From positions 1,736,001 to 1,800,000 of the forward strand of contig NZ_SDMK01000001.1 of NCBI RefSeq assembly GCF_004123295.1: DNA of 64,000 nucleotides, in the 5' to 3' direction. Source of the stretch: Silvibacterium dinghuense (lineage in GTDB: Bacteria; Acidobacteriota; Terriglobia; Terriglobales; Acidobacteriaceae). The translations under genes and the position numbers were made by a program. Numbering within the stretch: position 1 is the first letter of the stretch; the number at the start of each line of letters is the position of its first letter. Of this stretch, positions 50,309 to 54,904 are shown piece after piece. Under the pieces are notes generated by a model. The model was not told the DNA's origin. It was given only the letters and a program-made list of their open reading frames with translations, and did not search any database.

Positions 50309-50489
50309 GATGGGAGTGTAGTCGATTGTTCACACCGGCTTTTCCACGGCGAGTGCCGGCGGCCGCGTTTGGAGCCGATAAAAACAATTTCAACGCCATC
50401 CGCTTACCATTCGGAATTGGATACGTCCTTTATGCGGAAGCTGTACGCCCAGACGGTTCCCGTTCCAGCCGTTCCTGCAAGGAGCTTTG

Positions 50490-51188
50490 ATGTCTGCTGA
50501 CGCCCTCCGTTTCGTTTCCCCCTTCGCCTCATCGGCCAACTCCGGACCGTCGGCAGCACCACAGCCGGCAAAGATACAATCTTCGCGAGGGATGCTGACC
50601 GATCCACAGGCCCGCGCAAGCGAGATGGAATTGATCCGCGAGGCGCAACAGGGTTCGCGCGCAGCGTTTGACGCTCTGGTGCGTCAATATGATCAGGCGG
50701 TGCTAAGGCTGGCACTTCACCTGACGGGATCCGAGCAGGACGCCGAAGATATCCACCAGGAGGCATTCCTCAAGGCCTATCGCTATCTGGGCAACTTCCG
50801 CTTCGAGTGCTCGTTCTACACCTGGATCTACCGGATCGTCACGAACCTGTGCCTCGACCTGCTGCGGCGGAGAAAATCGCGGCGCGAGGACCAGGCGGTC
50901 ATGGTGGACTCTTCAGGCGAAGAGATGGACCTGCTCAGCAATGTCTCCGATGACCGGGCGGGTGCGAATCCGGACCGCGAACTGCACCGCAAGATACTCG
51001 GATCGAAGATCCGCGAGGCACTGGATCAGCTCACACCGCGAGAGCGGATGGTCTTCGAGCTGAAGCACTACCAGGGATTGAAGCTGAGAACCATCGGCGA
51101 GATGTTGAACACCACGGAAGAGACGGCCAAGAACACGCTCTTCCGGGCAACACGGAAGCTGCGGGCGAACCTGGCGGAGATGCGGTAA
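50490..51188 (+). CDS. ECF RNA polymerase sigma factor (RpoE-like)
   Basis: A 232-residue sigma-70 family factor of the extracytoplasmic-function class. The start is ATG at 50490 with AAGGAG seven bases upstream. Region 2 spans about residues 45-130 (FDALVRQYDQAVLRLALHLTG, DAEDIHQEAFLKAYR, FYTWIYRIVTNLCLDLLRRR) and region 4 about 170-230 (LDQLTPRERMVFELKHYQG, TIGEMLNTTEETAKNTLFRA). The N-terminal 40 residues are a disordered Ser/Pro/Ala tail. It is followed 217 bases later by a zinc anti-sigma gene and then a PDZ protein gene, forming a likely stress-response module. Confidence 0.95.
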   Translation: MSADALRFVSPFASSANSGPSAAPQPAKIQSSRGMLTDPQARASEMELIREAQQGSRAAFDALVRQYDQAVLRLALHLTGSEQDAEDIHQEAFLKAYRYLGNFRFECSFYTWIYRIVTNLCLDLLRRRKSRREDQAVMVDSSGEEMDLLSNVSDDRAGANPDRELHRKILGSKIREALDQLTPRERMVFELKHYQGLKLRTIGEMLNTTEETAKNTLFRATRKLRANLAEMR

Positions 51189-51405
51189 GAGATTTCAAGC
51201 AGAAGCTGGAAGAAACGACACAAAGCGGAGACCTGAAACAGAGAAGCAAAGCCAAGACCTGTGGACGAACGCCCCCGGTTCCCTCCAGACAACAGGCTCA
51301 GGCTTCAGGACATGCAGCAGGATCAGCAGCAGGCAGTATCCCGACTACCGGACAAAAGATTCGGAGCGGGCGCAGCAAGACTTTCGAGGCAGTGAGGCGA
51401 AGACC

Positions 51406-52422
51406 ATGACCATGAAGTGCGACGCGGCACAAGAGCAAATCGCTTTGGCCGTCTACGGCGAGCTTGCCGACGACCAGAAGCACCAACTCGAGCAGCATCT
51501 CGGCGTGTGCGAAGCCTGCCGGGATGAGCTTGAGGGCGCGCAGGCCCTGATGCGGGCCATGGCGCTGTTGCCAGTAGAAGACCCCACCCCGAATTTCGTA
51601 GCGCGGACACGGATGCGCCTGGAAGAGGCACTGGACGCGATGCCGCAGGGCGGCTGGGTACTGCGGGTCTCGCAGCAGTTTTCACGCGGAGTCCACCGGC
51701 TGCGCTCCGCGCCGGTCGCAGCATCCCTGCTGCTGATCGCCGGTGTCGGCACAGGCGCCTATGGCGGATACCATGCCGGCTTGCGCGCCCACGTGACCAC
51801 GCCGGTGATGGCGGCGACGCAGGCTCCCGCCGCCGGTACGACAGTGGCTCCGGAAACCATCACCGCCGAGCCCGCCGGAGAGGAAAGCGCGGATAACGTC
51901 GCCAGCGTGAACGGCATTCTCGCAGAGCCGGGAACGGGCAACGTGGAAGTGCATTACAACCGGCTGGTGCCGGCCTCCGTGCATGGATCGCTGAACGACC
52001 CGGGAATCCGGCAGCTGCTGGTGATCGGCGCGAAGAACCGGGTAGATGCCGATGTGCGCAACAACTCGGTCGGGCTGCTGGCAAACGGCTGCCGCACAGG
52101 GCAGATGTGCAGCGACCGGCTGGTGCGCAACGAACTGATGGTCTCCCTTCTCTATGACGACAGCTCGCGCGTGCGCCTGGAGGCGCTGGACGGCCTGCAG
52201 TCCTTTGTGGCCGACGACATGAAGGTGCGCGACGCGGTGCTCGAAGCGCTGATGCGCGACCCCAGTGCCGAGGTGCGGGCTCGCGCCGTCGAACTGCTCG
52301 AGCCGGTAGGCGCAGACTCGAGCGTGCGCGAGGTACTGCATACGGTAGCGGTACGTGATGACAACCCCCAGATCCGGGGCGTCTCGCAACAGGTGCTGAG
52401 CCAGATCGAACAGGTGCAGTAA
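51406..52422 (+). CDS. Anti-sigma factor with zinc motif and HEAT-like extracytoplasmic domain
   Basis: A 338-residue membrane protein. The N-terminal zinc-binding ZAS motif is His31-x3-Cys35-x2-Cys38 (QLEQHLGVCEACRDEL). A single transmembrane helix lies at about 103-124 (PVAASLLLIAGVGTGAYGG). The extracytoplasmic part has a low-complexity Thr/Ala/Pro linker followed by HEAT-like helical repeats from about 175 to the end (SRVRLEALDGLQSF, VLEALMRDPSAEVRARAVELL). ZAS proteins bind ECF sigma factors and release them on signal. HEAT repeats as the sensing part are uncommon for this class. The 217-base gap after the sigma gene may hold an extra promoter. Confidence 0.85.
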   Translation: MTMKCDAAQEQIALAVYGELADDQKHQLEQHLGVCEACRDELEGAQALMRAMALLPVEDPTPNFVARTRMRLEEALDAMPQGGWVLRVSQQFSRGVHRLRSAPVAASLLLIAGVGTGAYGGYHAGLRAHVTTPVMAATQAPAAGTTVAPETITAEPAGEESADNVASVNGILAEPGTGNVEVHYNRLVPASVHGSLNDPGIRQLLVIGAKNRVDADVRNNSVGLLANGCRTGQMCSDRLVRNELMVSLLYDDSSRVRLEALDGLQSFVADDMKVRDAVLEALMRDPSAEVRARAVELLEPVGADSSVREVLHTVAVRDDNPQIRGVSQQVLSQIEQVQ

Positions 52423-52451
52423 GAAGATCCGGCCTTGCGCCGGATCTTCTT
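52421..52451 (+). terminator. Terminator after the anti-sigma gene
   Basis: A 13-bp perfect stem (AAGAAGATCCGGC and complement) with 5-base loop, directly overlapping the stop and followed by TCATTG. It separates the anti-sigma gene from the PDZ gene by a possible attenuator. Confidence 0.6.
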
Positions 52452-52573
52452 TCATTGCACGATCATCCTGGTCTGGCATCATGGTTCCCGCAACCTTTTG
52501 TCACCTCCACCGTCACACAAAAGACAGGCCGACTCCCCCGGCAGAGAGGGAGAGGCGAGAAGAAGGAAGAGCC

Positions 52574-53419
52574 ATGAAGCATCTTTCGAGGCTGGTGTCC
52601 GCAGCGACGGCGATGGCCGTTCTGTCCTCGTGGGGAAGCGCCTATGCCATAGGCACCGGCCATCCGGCCGCTGTTCCGCAGAGTTCCGCCGCGACCAGCA
52701 ATGTATCCGGTTACCTGGGGATCGGGGTGCGCGACGTCGCCGCCGACCGGGTAAAAGACCTGAAGCTCAAGGACACCACCGGGGCGGAAATCATTACCCT
52801 CGATCACGATGCGCCCGCCGCCTCGGCAGGCCTCAAGCTGCACGATGTGGTGCAGCAGATGAACGGGCAGGCCATCGCCAATGCCGAACAACTGCGCAAA
52901 CTGCTGCACGAGACCCCGGCGGGGCGGAATATCACGCTGCAGATCAGCCGTGACGGCCAGCAGCAGACCATCTCGGCAACGCTGGCCGATCAGACACAGC
53001 TCGAGCACAGCGTGCTGGACAACCTGACCGTCGTGCCCGACCCCAACTCGGATGGAGATATCGCGCTGAGCGCGCCCTCCTCCCATGGGTACGGATTCTT
53101 CGGCTCGCTGCTCTTCGGCGGCCCCTCGATCGGGCTGCAACTGGACCCTTTGAATGCACAGCTGGCGGAATACTTCGGCCTGCATGACGGCCGGGGCCTG
53201 CTGGTAAAGCGGGTCGCGGCAAACAGCGCGGGCTCGGCGGCCGGACTCAAGGCCGGCGATGTCGTGATCCGGGTGAACGGACGGAATATGGCTTCCGTGA
53301 GTGACTGGGACAAGGCACTGCACGCCAACCGCGGCAAGCAGGTGCAGGTGACCATCTTCCGCAACCACAGGGAGTTTACGATGAGCCTGCAGGACGGGGA
53401 ACCGAAGAAAAAGGGCTAA
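52574..53419 (+). CDS. Secreted double-PDZ protein without protease domain
   Basis: A 281-residue exported protein starting at MKHLSRLVSA with GAAGGAAGAG upstream. A signal peptide (to about residue 30) precedes two PDZ domains: the first around residues 45-145 (YLGIGVRDVAADRV, ASAGLKLHDVVQQMNGQAIA) and the second around 180-270 (GLLVKRVAANSAGSAAGLKAGDVVIRVNG). No HtrA-type catalytic triad is present. PDZ domains bind C-terminal peptides, typically of misfolded outer-membrane proteins; here the protein could deliver a signal to the neighbouring anti-sigma factor. It is separated from that gene by a hairpin but lies in the same direction. Confidence 0.85.
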   Translation: MKHLSRLVSAATAMAVLSSWGSAYAIGTGHPAAVPQSSAATSNVSGYLGIGVRDVAADRVKDLKLKDTTGAEIITLDHDAPAASAGLKLHDVVQQMNGQAIANAEQLRKLLHETPAGRNITLQISRDGQQQTISATLADQTQLEHSVLDNLTVVPDPNSDGDIALSAPSSHGYGFFGSLLFGGPSIGLQLDPLNAQLAEYFGLHDGRGLLVKRVAANSAGSAAGLKAGDVVIRVNGRNMASVSDWDKALHANRGKQVQVTIFRNHREFTMSLQDGEPKKKG

Positions 53420-53815: not shown

Positions 53816-54904
53816 ATGTCGACTGCCGTACAGCAGCCAGGAACGCAGAAGCCGGAAACCCCGAAGCCGGGTGCCGCAAAGGCTCTGCCGGTTAAGCGCC
53901 CATTTCTCCGCAAGATGCGGGCGGCTACGCGCAAGGCGCGCGAGCTGGCCATCGTAGGCCGGGCACTGGCCTCGACCGGGCATCCGGTCATGGCGCAGAT
54001 CGTACCGATGCGCTTCTGCAACCTCTCCTGCACCTACTGCAACGAATACGACAAGGTCTCCGAGCCGGTGCCGCTCGACGAGATGCTGCGCCGCATCGAC
54101 CACCTGGGGCGCCTGGGTACGAGCATCATCACCATCTCCGGCGGCGAGCCGACGACCCATCCCGACCTCGACGTAATCATCCGCCGCATCCGCAAGAACG
54201 GCGCGCTGGCCGGCATGATCACCAATGGCTACTACCTGGTGCCGGAGCGCATCGAGCGGCTGAACCGCGCCGGACTCGACCATCTGCAGATCTCGATCGA
54301 CAACATCAATCCGGACGAAGTCTCGAAGAAGAGCCTCAAAGTTCTGGACAAGAAGCTGGAATGGCTCTCGGAGTACGCCGAGTTCCACGTAAACATCAAC
54401 TCGGTGGTAGGCGGCGGCATTTCGAACCCCGAAGACGCGCTGACCATCGGGCGCCGCGCCTTGGAGCTGGGCTTTACCTCGACCATCGGTATCATCCACG
54501 ACGGCGACGGCCAGCTGAAGCCGCTGGGCGGCCGCGAGCGCGCCGTGTGGCAGGAAATGCGCGGCTGGAACAAGAAGAACTATTCTCGTTTCAACAAGTT
54601 CCAGGAAGCCATCGCCAACGCGCAGCCCAATGACTGGCGCTGCCGCGCCGGCTCACGCTACATCTACGTGTGCGAAAACGGCCTGGTGCACTACTGCTCC
54701 CAGCAGAGGGGCTTCCCCGGCGTGCCGCTGGCCGAGTACACCAAGGAGGATGTGAAGCGGGAGTTTCTCACCGAGAAGACCTGCGCGCCGCACTGCACCA
54801 TCAGCTGCGTCCATCAAATCTCCTACATCGACCACTGGCGCGCGCCGCAGACCTCGCGCATCTCGCCGGGCTCGGCCGACGGCCTGGTCAACATCCACAC
54901 GTAA
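53816..54904 (+). CDS. Radical SAM protein
   Basis: A 362-residue enzyme with the [4Fe-4S]-binding CNLSCTYC (near residue 69) and GGEPTTHPD of the SAM-binding barrel. The C-terminal part has more cysteines (RCRAGSRYIYVCENG, HYCSQQRG, KTCAPHCTISC), consistent with an additional Fe-S or SPASM-like domain. Related proteins modify peptides or lipids, but no precursor peptide or partner gene is adjacent, so the substrate is unknown. The N-terminus has a Pro/Lys-rich tail of about 35 residues before the conserved part. It is bounded by repeat-bearing intergenic regions on both sides. Confidence 0.87.
   Translation: MSTAVQQPGTQKPETPKPGAAKALPVKRPFLRKMRAATRKARELAIVGRALASTGHPVMAQIVPMRFCNLSCTYCNEYDKVSEPVPLDEMLRRIDHLGRLGTSIITISGGEPTTHPDLDVIIRRIRKNGALAGMITNGYYLVPERIERLNRAGLDHLQISIDNINPDEVSKKSLKVLDKKLEWLSEYAEFHVNINSVVGGGISNPEDALTIGRRALELGFTSTIGIIHDGDGQLKPLGGRERAVWQEMRGWNKKNYSRFNKFQEAIANAQPNDWRCRAGSRYIYVCENGLVHYCSQQRGFPGVPLAEYTKEDVKREFLTEKTCAPHCTISCVHQISYIDHWRAPQTSRISPGSADGLVNIHT

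Follow-up and report, generated by a model that had tools for sequence, protein, structure and literature searches.

The sigma factor sigmaE of E. coli is encoded in an operon of the layout rpoE-rseA-rseB-rseC, and the proteases DegS and RseP are kept outside that operon. In B. subtilis, sigmaW is paired with RsiW, an anti-sigma factor not known to have a HEAT domain. Here we describe a locus from the acidobacterium Silvibacterium dinghuense (GCF_004123295.1, NZ_SDMK01000001.1, 1,736,001-1,800,000; this 64,000-nt stretch is called the window, and coordinates below are window positions) in which three genes at 50490-53419, all on the + strand, encode an extracytoplasmic function (ECF) sigma factor, a zinc anti-sigma factor, and an exported tandem-PDZ protein. 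We propose that the set is an autoregulated envelope stress switch of the general RseA type, in which a HEAT domain is the sensor, the PDZ protein and a second exported protein (X, encoded between the anti-sigma and PDZ genes in relatives) are RseB-like partners, and the proteases are encoded elsewhere; we give this proposal about an even chance of being right. Acidobacteria abound in soil and are difficult to study; in the open-licence literature searched, their sensing of envelope damage is little described. No paper on a HEAT-domain anti-sigma factor was found in that literature, judged by titles and abstract starts. The proposed switch is small and conserved, has a predicted promoter of its own, and offers a testable sensor domain.

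The locus shares with sigmaE an ECF sigma factor, a membrane anti-sigma factor, genes for exported partners downstream, a motif before the sigma gene that suggests autoregulation, and proteases of the RseP and HtrA types at other genomic sites. It differs in its HEAT outer domain and zinc-type anti-sigma domain, and in that RseB and RseC are replaced by a tandem-PDZ protein, accompanied in relatives by a Toastrack-like one. E. coli RseB is encoded in the operon, binds RseA, and regulates it, according to an excerpt of PMC8103513. The window set has neither an RseA outer domain nor an RseB partner: the outer domain is of the HEAT type, and no RseB-type Pfam domain was found in the three proteins. 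The proposed switch logic is the familiar one of RseA, and the combination of HEAT, Toastrack, and PDZ domains is another sensor domain and accessory set.

We searched 81 genomes with the anti-sigma protein, 49 of them in the window's family, and obtained near end-to-end matches in 47 of the 49 family genomes and weak or partial matches in G010 and G013. When 297 genomes of the phylum were searched with a profile, 141 gave matches, many to the zinc part only. After addition of 20 regions from other classes and 20 further family regions, 102 loci including the window were examined, 101 of them with a usable anti-sigma open reading frame (ORF). L141, with no anti-sigma ORF above threshold, is excluded from every count, L079 (contig end) from counts of X, and L137 (short upstream sequence) from the promoter count. 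L131 and L132 were scored as X-bearing; over-long ORF starts had hidden X there in the locus scan. Family and class groupings are the coded groups of the genome set (f1 etc.), and L032 was counted with the window's family because it falls inside that clade of the anti-sigma tree. Two loci stand outside all counts: L209 (G061) has all four genes, though the protein search had missed the anti-sigma gene there, and L208 (G057) has X and the PDZ gene at a contig end.

The sigma gene (50490..51188, + strand) encodes a 232-residue protein matching Pfam Sigma70_r2 (E 2.5e-18) and Sigma70_r4_2 (E 4.6e-13), both over the cut-off, and TIGR02937 (121 bits). Regions 2 and 4 are the only ones present in this one short protein, as in ECF factors. 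Its matches to specific NCBIfam equivalogs fall below their cut-offs among the best 25 of 121 families listed, and a previously described ECF group may cover it. The sigma gene adjoins the anti-sigma gene in 101/101 usable loci; we take this adjacency as support only for binding and inhibition of the sigma factor by the putative zinc anti-sigma (ZAS) protein. The two genes are 217 bp apart in the window, and short or overlapping gene gaps occur in many relatives (for example, -4 bp in L043 and L050, counted from the longest possible ORF starts).

The anti-sigma gene (51406..52422, + strand) encodes a 338-residue membrane protein with Pfam matches above the cut-off to zf-HC2 (E 2e-6) and to HEAT_2 (E 1.1e-7). 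In the zinc domain (residues 5-39; 51418..51522, + strand), C5, H31, C35, and C38 make up the ZAS ligand set and are unchanged in 62/62 aligned rows; these four residues are presumably the zinc ligands, in the motif C...H-x3-C-x2-C. The family profile of the anti-sigma factor (A1) matches solved RsiW (5wuq/5wur; 5wuq at E 3e-4) in its first 70 positions, a likeness to the sigmaW-RsiW system, and solved alphaRep/HEAT chains in its C-terminal part. A1 also matches the solved chain 3hug, annotated as a probable conserved membrane protein, which we take to be the anti-sigma factor RslA. A probable single transmembrane helix at about residues 103-124 (51712..51777, + strand) was read from the sequence; its residues P103, G113, and G117 are mostly conserved in the anti-sigma alignment.

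The outer domain (51898..52419, + strand) was modeled with AlphaFold2, using the window anti-sigma plus one relative as input. The model shows three strands followed by eight helices in residues 165-338, with ten-residue means of pLDDT (predicted local distance difference test) of 76-91 except in two blocks close to the start (61-65); residues 1-163 were modeled with low confidence. With its helices paired antiparallel in repeats, the outer domain is, as modeled, HEAT-like. The chains listed by a VIA-align search with the model are mostly generic helical repeats (Z 12.3-14.2), and HEAT_2 was found in 26/26 A1 members. The predicted topology would place the HEAT domain in the periplasm. An earlier note, made from the letters of this DNA, had read the set as an ECF sigma factor, a zinc anti-sigma factor with a HEAT-like outer part, and an exported double-PDZ protein without a protease; Pfam found these domains at or near the positions it gave, and the HEAT_2 matches, the predicted fold, and the helical-repeat structural matches agree with its view of the outer part.

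The PDZ gene (52574..53419, + strand; 281 residues from the likely start) lies in an ORF that is open from 52481 (312 residues). The ATG at 52574 is likely the start, since it gives a signal-like N-terminus behind a purine-rich stretch. There are two PDZ stretches (PDZ_2 for the protein, E 1.3e-24): PDZ domain 1 (PDZ_2, residues 77-168 of the 312-residue ORF, 52709..52984, + strand) and PDZ domain 2 (PDZ, residues 228-292, 53162..53356, + strand). All over-cut-off Pfam matches are to PDZ models, so that neither a protease domain in general nor the trypsin-like catalytic domain of an HtrA protease was found. Among solved sequences, DegP-like proteases match it best (E 2e-20), over their PDZ part; the protein thus resembles DegP/DegQ/HtrA in its tandem PDZ domains and differs from them in lacking the protease domain. 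Its predicted structure is poor (mean pLDDT 44.6). By a simple script that looks for a hydrophobic or small-residue run, 76/79 PDZ ORFs have a signal-like start. The PDZ gene lies downstream of the anti-sigma gene in 64/68 loci of the window's family (30/30 with X and 34/38 without; the four without a linked PDZ gene are L035, L038, L088, and L089), in 10/14 loci of the same class outside the family, and in 5/6 of L129-L134, a family of another class. The 64 linked family loci rule out that the PDZ gene is unlinked as a rule.

Most relatives that fall outside the clade of the window have one more gene, X, of roughly 400 codons, placed between the anti-sigma and PDZ genes; its product is glycine-rich and repetitive. 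A signal-like start was found by simple script in 53/59 X ORFs. Matches to DUF4097, the 'Toastrack' family, were obtained for 9/17 X members at E <=0.01 (best 9.5e-8; L051 scored 21.1 against a cut-off of 22.9 bits), and a search for solved sequence relatives of X gave none at E 0.01. Toastrack proteins are partners of PSP/Lia envelope-stress systems, where they are predicted to be intracellular in an excerpt of a PSP/Lia-related paper. The DUF4097 matches of the 9 X members are the likeness to them; X differs in that it mostly has a signal-like start and sits beside a HEAT anti-sigma factor, and in that the window locus lacks it. With X, Toastrack-like proteins would be placed next to an anti-sigma factor and outside the cytoplasm. 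As a side observation, X proteins of group f7 exceed 600 residues (L082, 9017-10924 in oriented coordinates; L092, 9141-10961), and the L082 protein has, by eye, a TonB-like end.

X is present in 61/100 assessable loci. It is missing from the other 39, namely L083 and 38 loci of the family, among them the window. A tree built from 100 anti-sigma factors unites these 38 family loci in one clade with support 100/100; mapped on this tree, the presence of X requires two changes, the second being L083, and on this mapping X is lost once on the window's branch. We also considered relocation of X to another site and rejected it: the best match in 15 X-less genomes scored 87 bits (G020 gave none), against 424-576 bits in 13 X-bearing family genomes. 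The window genome has four weak X matches, with C2:1024812, C1:1436223, and C1:2376382 among those listed. At the first of these (G000:C2:1024812; L098, L210), a distant DUF4097-like protein is encoded about 4 kb from the gene for an RseP-type protease. Because the X-less clade is single and no comparable copy of X was found in the 15 X-less genomes, the window holds a derived, trimmed set. The distribution of the genes suggests an older core of sigma factor, HEAT anti-sigma factor, and X, joined by the PDZ gene within a portion of the phylum. Related lineages, some with a Toastrack-like partner and some lacking it, make this a natural experiment.

Loss of X coincides with two changes in the anti-sigma factor, and both fall on the same single branch. 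A loop of the HEAT domain is lengthened and carries two cysteines (C229 and C235; 52090..52110, + strand) in 38/38 X-less family loci and 0/30 X-bearing ones, one of which has a single cysteine at the loop position. C229 and C235 would probably form a disulfide. The last residue of the protein is Q in 36 and E in 2 of the X-less family loci; among the 30 X-bearing family loci it is D in 23, N in 3, E in 2, Q in 1, and Y in 1. Since the 38 rows form one clade, the co-occurrence of X loss and cysteine loop counts as one event. These changes bring up the idea that the HEAT anti-sigma factor is a docking platform whose inhibition was set by an exported Toastrack scaffold, and that after X was lost the disulfide loop and altered C-terminus turned it into a partly redox-gated sensor with the PDZ protein as sole linked partner. 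We regard this as a long shot; L083, from another family of the same class, lost X independently and without a cysteine pair.

A related alternative is a switch without cleavage. Here the PDZ protein (or X) would bind directly to the HEAT domain, and a shift in that binding or in the disulfide would act on the anti-sigma factor across the membrane and free the sigma factor. The HEAT fold is a natural protein-binding surface, the partners are gene-linked in most family loci, and the set itself encodes no protease. The conserved C-terminus of the anti-sigma factor, mostly D in X-bearing and mostly Q in X-less loci, also counts in its favor. Proteins ending in D, N, E, or Q are nonetheless poor PDZ ligands, a Q or D end being unusual for one; with its polar last residue, classical PDZ binding of the anti-sigma C-terminus is disfavoured, and other contacts are possible. 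The unlinked PDZ gene of three relatives (below) also tells against a switch without cleavage, as does the presence of candidate proteases in the genome, and we consider it unlikely. The rivals weighed here and below are not mutually exclusive with the switch that we favor.

The host genome (5.1 Mb in 9 contigs, 99.93% complete) encodes an M50 (RseP-type) protease at C2:1019302 (216 bits, with two PDZ-like stretches in frame) and, at other sites, three Trypsin_2 (HtrA-type) proteases whose frames also contain PDZ matches. Candidates for both the site-1 and site-2 proteases of regulated proteolysis are therefore present. The earlier note had taken a protease-free PDZ protein and a helical-repeat sensor to suggest a different route of signalling, such as direct binding; this step fails because candidate proteases are encoded elsewhere in the genome, and in E. 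coli, too, the genes for DegS and RseP are not part of the rpoE operon.

In the switch that we favor, the zinc domain of the membrane anti-sigma factor would hold the ECF sigma factor in the resting cell, with the periplasm-facing HEAT domain acting as a protein-docking sensor. In the older set, exported Toastrack-like X and the DegP-like tandem-PDZ protein without a protease would dock on this domain and, like E. coli RseB, occupy or shield it. Misfolded envelope proteins or envelope damage would draw these partners off, and the exposed anti-sigma factor would be cut by an HtrA-type site-1 protease and then by an RseP-type site-2 protease, both encoded elsewhere. The freed sigma factor would transcribe its own operon first, from a GCTnAC-N16-CGTC promoter. 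In the window's lineage, X was lost once, the HEAT domain gained a probable disulfide loop, and the PDZ protein is the only linked partner left. The sequences themselves show the domains, the order of the genes, the X loss, the motif, and the protease genes; topology, sensing, docking, cleavage, use of the promoter, and the disulfide are inferred from them.

The autoregulation in this proposal draws on an ECF-type promoter-like site, GCTTAC-N16-CGTC, at 50402..50427 (+ strand), 62 bp before the sigma ATG. The motif GCTnAC-N16-CGTC is found upstream of the sigma gene in at least 55/100 loci, against 0.78 expected from mononucleotide shuffles; 55 is a lower bound because over-long ORF starts hid sites, those in L054, L071, and L149 being missed by the motif count. 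The 16-base spacer is nearly constant among the listed sites. By group, the motif is present in 25/30 X-bearing family loci, 9/14 loci of the class, and 5/6 of L129-L134. Given this excess over expectation, the sigma gene is likely autoregulated through the predicted promoter at 50402-50427. Of the 27 strict matches in the window's own genome, 15 are GCTHAC and 12 GCTGAC forms, and only the GCTHAC ones were placed against ORFs. Two of these 15, the sigma site and C1:1617929, lie outside ORFs of >120 residues, and the sigma site is the only one of the two with an ORF start within <=260 bp downstream.

A stricter form of the motif was searched in 49 genomes; of the 30 loci obtained and inspected, seven are sigma promoters, and the rest stand at scattered genes. 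L218 and L222, from X-bearing genomes, encode related exported proteins, DUF2911-like by reading, with the motif at an over-long ORF start. PadR-like genes (by reading) start 24 and 16 bp past the match in L212 and L221, and the L221 match also lies inside another ORF. In L228 and L229, from the window's genus, the match overlaps a palindrome 14-19 bp before a presumably BlaI-like gene and is probably an operator rather than a sigma promoter.

A number of observations weigh against the proposed switch. Interaction, cleavage, and a response to stress are proposals read from the genes. The motif is found in just 16/38 X-less family loci and 0/12 distant ones. Genome-wide, the 27 strict matches compare with 93 for a reversed control; because the motif is not enriched, we claim only autoregulation, and a regulon beyond the own operon is unproven. 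In the window, the stop codon of the anti-sigma gene is followed by a 13-bp perfect hairpin (52421..52451, + strand; found by script, one copy in the window), with a folding energy of -34.6 kcal/mol (z -6.8) for positions 52410-52475. This hairpin could be an attenuator or terminator between the anti-sigma and PDZ genes and would then weaken PDZ co-transcription; the terminator scan did not call it, and its T tail is short. A loose script, run without shuffle control, gave a hairpin score >=20 after the anti-sigma gene in 13/39 X-less and 5/61 X-bearing loci; with so few loci reaching that score, the window hairpin is no family trait.

The remaining points of this kind concern linkage of the PDZ gene. 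It was found in 0/13 loci from more remote families; in four of these loci, the downstream sequence is shorter than 4 kb. These distant sets carry the sigma factor, the anti-sigma factor, and X, and the PDZ gene would therefore lie outside the oldest core. Within the sample, it stands away from the anti-sigma gene in G004, G007, and G025 (in G025 about 316 kb away, with a radical-SAM gene alongside; in G007 with no anti-sigma gene within nearly 4 kb upstream), and none was found in G003 (75% complete). G004, G007, and G003 (L035, L088, and L089) form one clade in the anti-sigma tree and may thus reflect a single unlinking event, G025 being another. G013 keeps a PDZ gene that is frameshifted close to its start, and the stretch around it has no sigma, anti-sigma, or X gene; these three are likewise absent around the PDZ gene in the sequence retrieved from G070 and G078. 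The linkage of PDZ and sigma genes among relatives that the earlier note had made a test of its reading thus holds for 64/68 family loci and breaks in G004, G007, and G025.

These findings bear on the possibility that X and the PDZ protein are merely outputs of the sigma factor, with an envelope-repair or chaperone-like role, and that the HEAT domain receives its signal from something encoded elsewhere. Both genes lie downstream of a likely autoregulated promoter, X was lost and the PDZ gene moved or kept independently of sigma, and the hairpin at 52421-52451 sets the PDZ gene apart in the window. Such a role fits less well with the coincidence of X loss with changes in the outer domain and C-terminus of the anti-sigma factor, though on one branch only. 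It also departs from the precedent of the sigmaE operon, whose periplasmic RseB regulates the anti-sigma factor (PMC8103513, in excerpt). We hold it to be a live rival, possible though somewhat improbable. The three unlinked relatives and the 13 distant sets without a found PDZ gene could also mean that the genes are neighbors by chance and functionally unrelated. We think this very improbable, as the PDZ gene follows in nearly all family loci and in most of L129-L134, while identity of the anti-sigma factor to that of the window falls from 61% down to 25% among 25 aligned relatives.

Downstream of the window set, a radical-SAM gene (53816-54904) follows the PDZ gene, as it does in many X-less relatives. 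The two genes are still side by side in G025 and G007 (L203 and L205), where the PDZ gene is away from the anti-sigma gene. NCBIfam matches of the radical-SAM gene are below cut-off among the best 25 of 64 listed.

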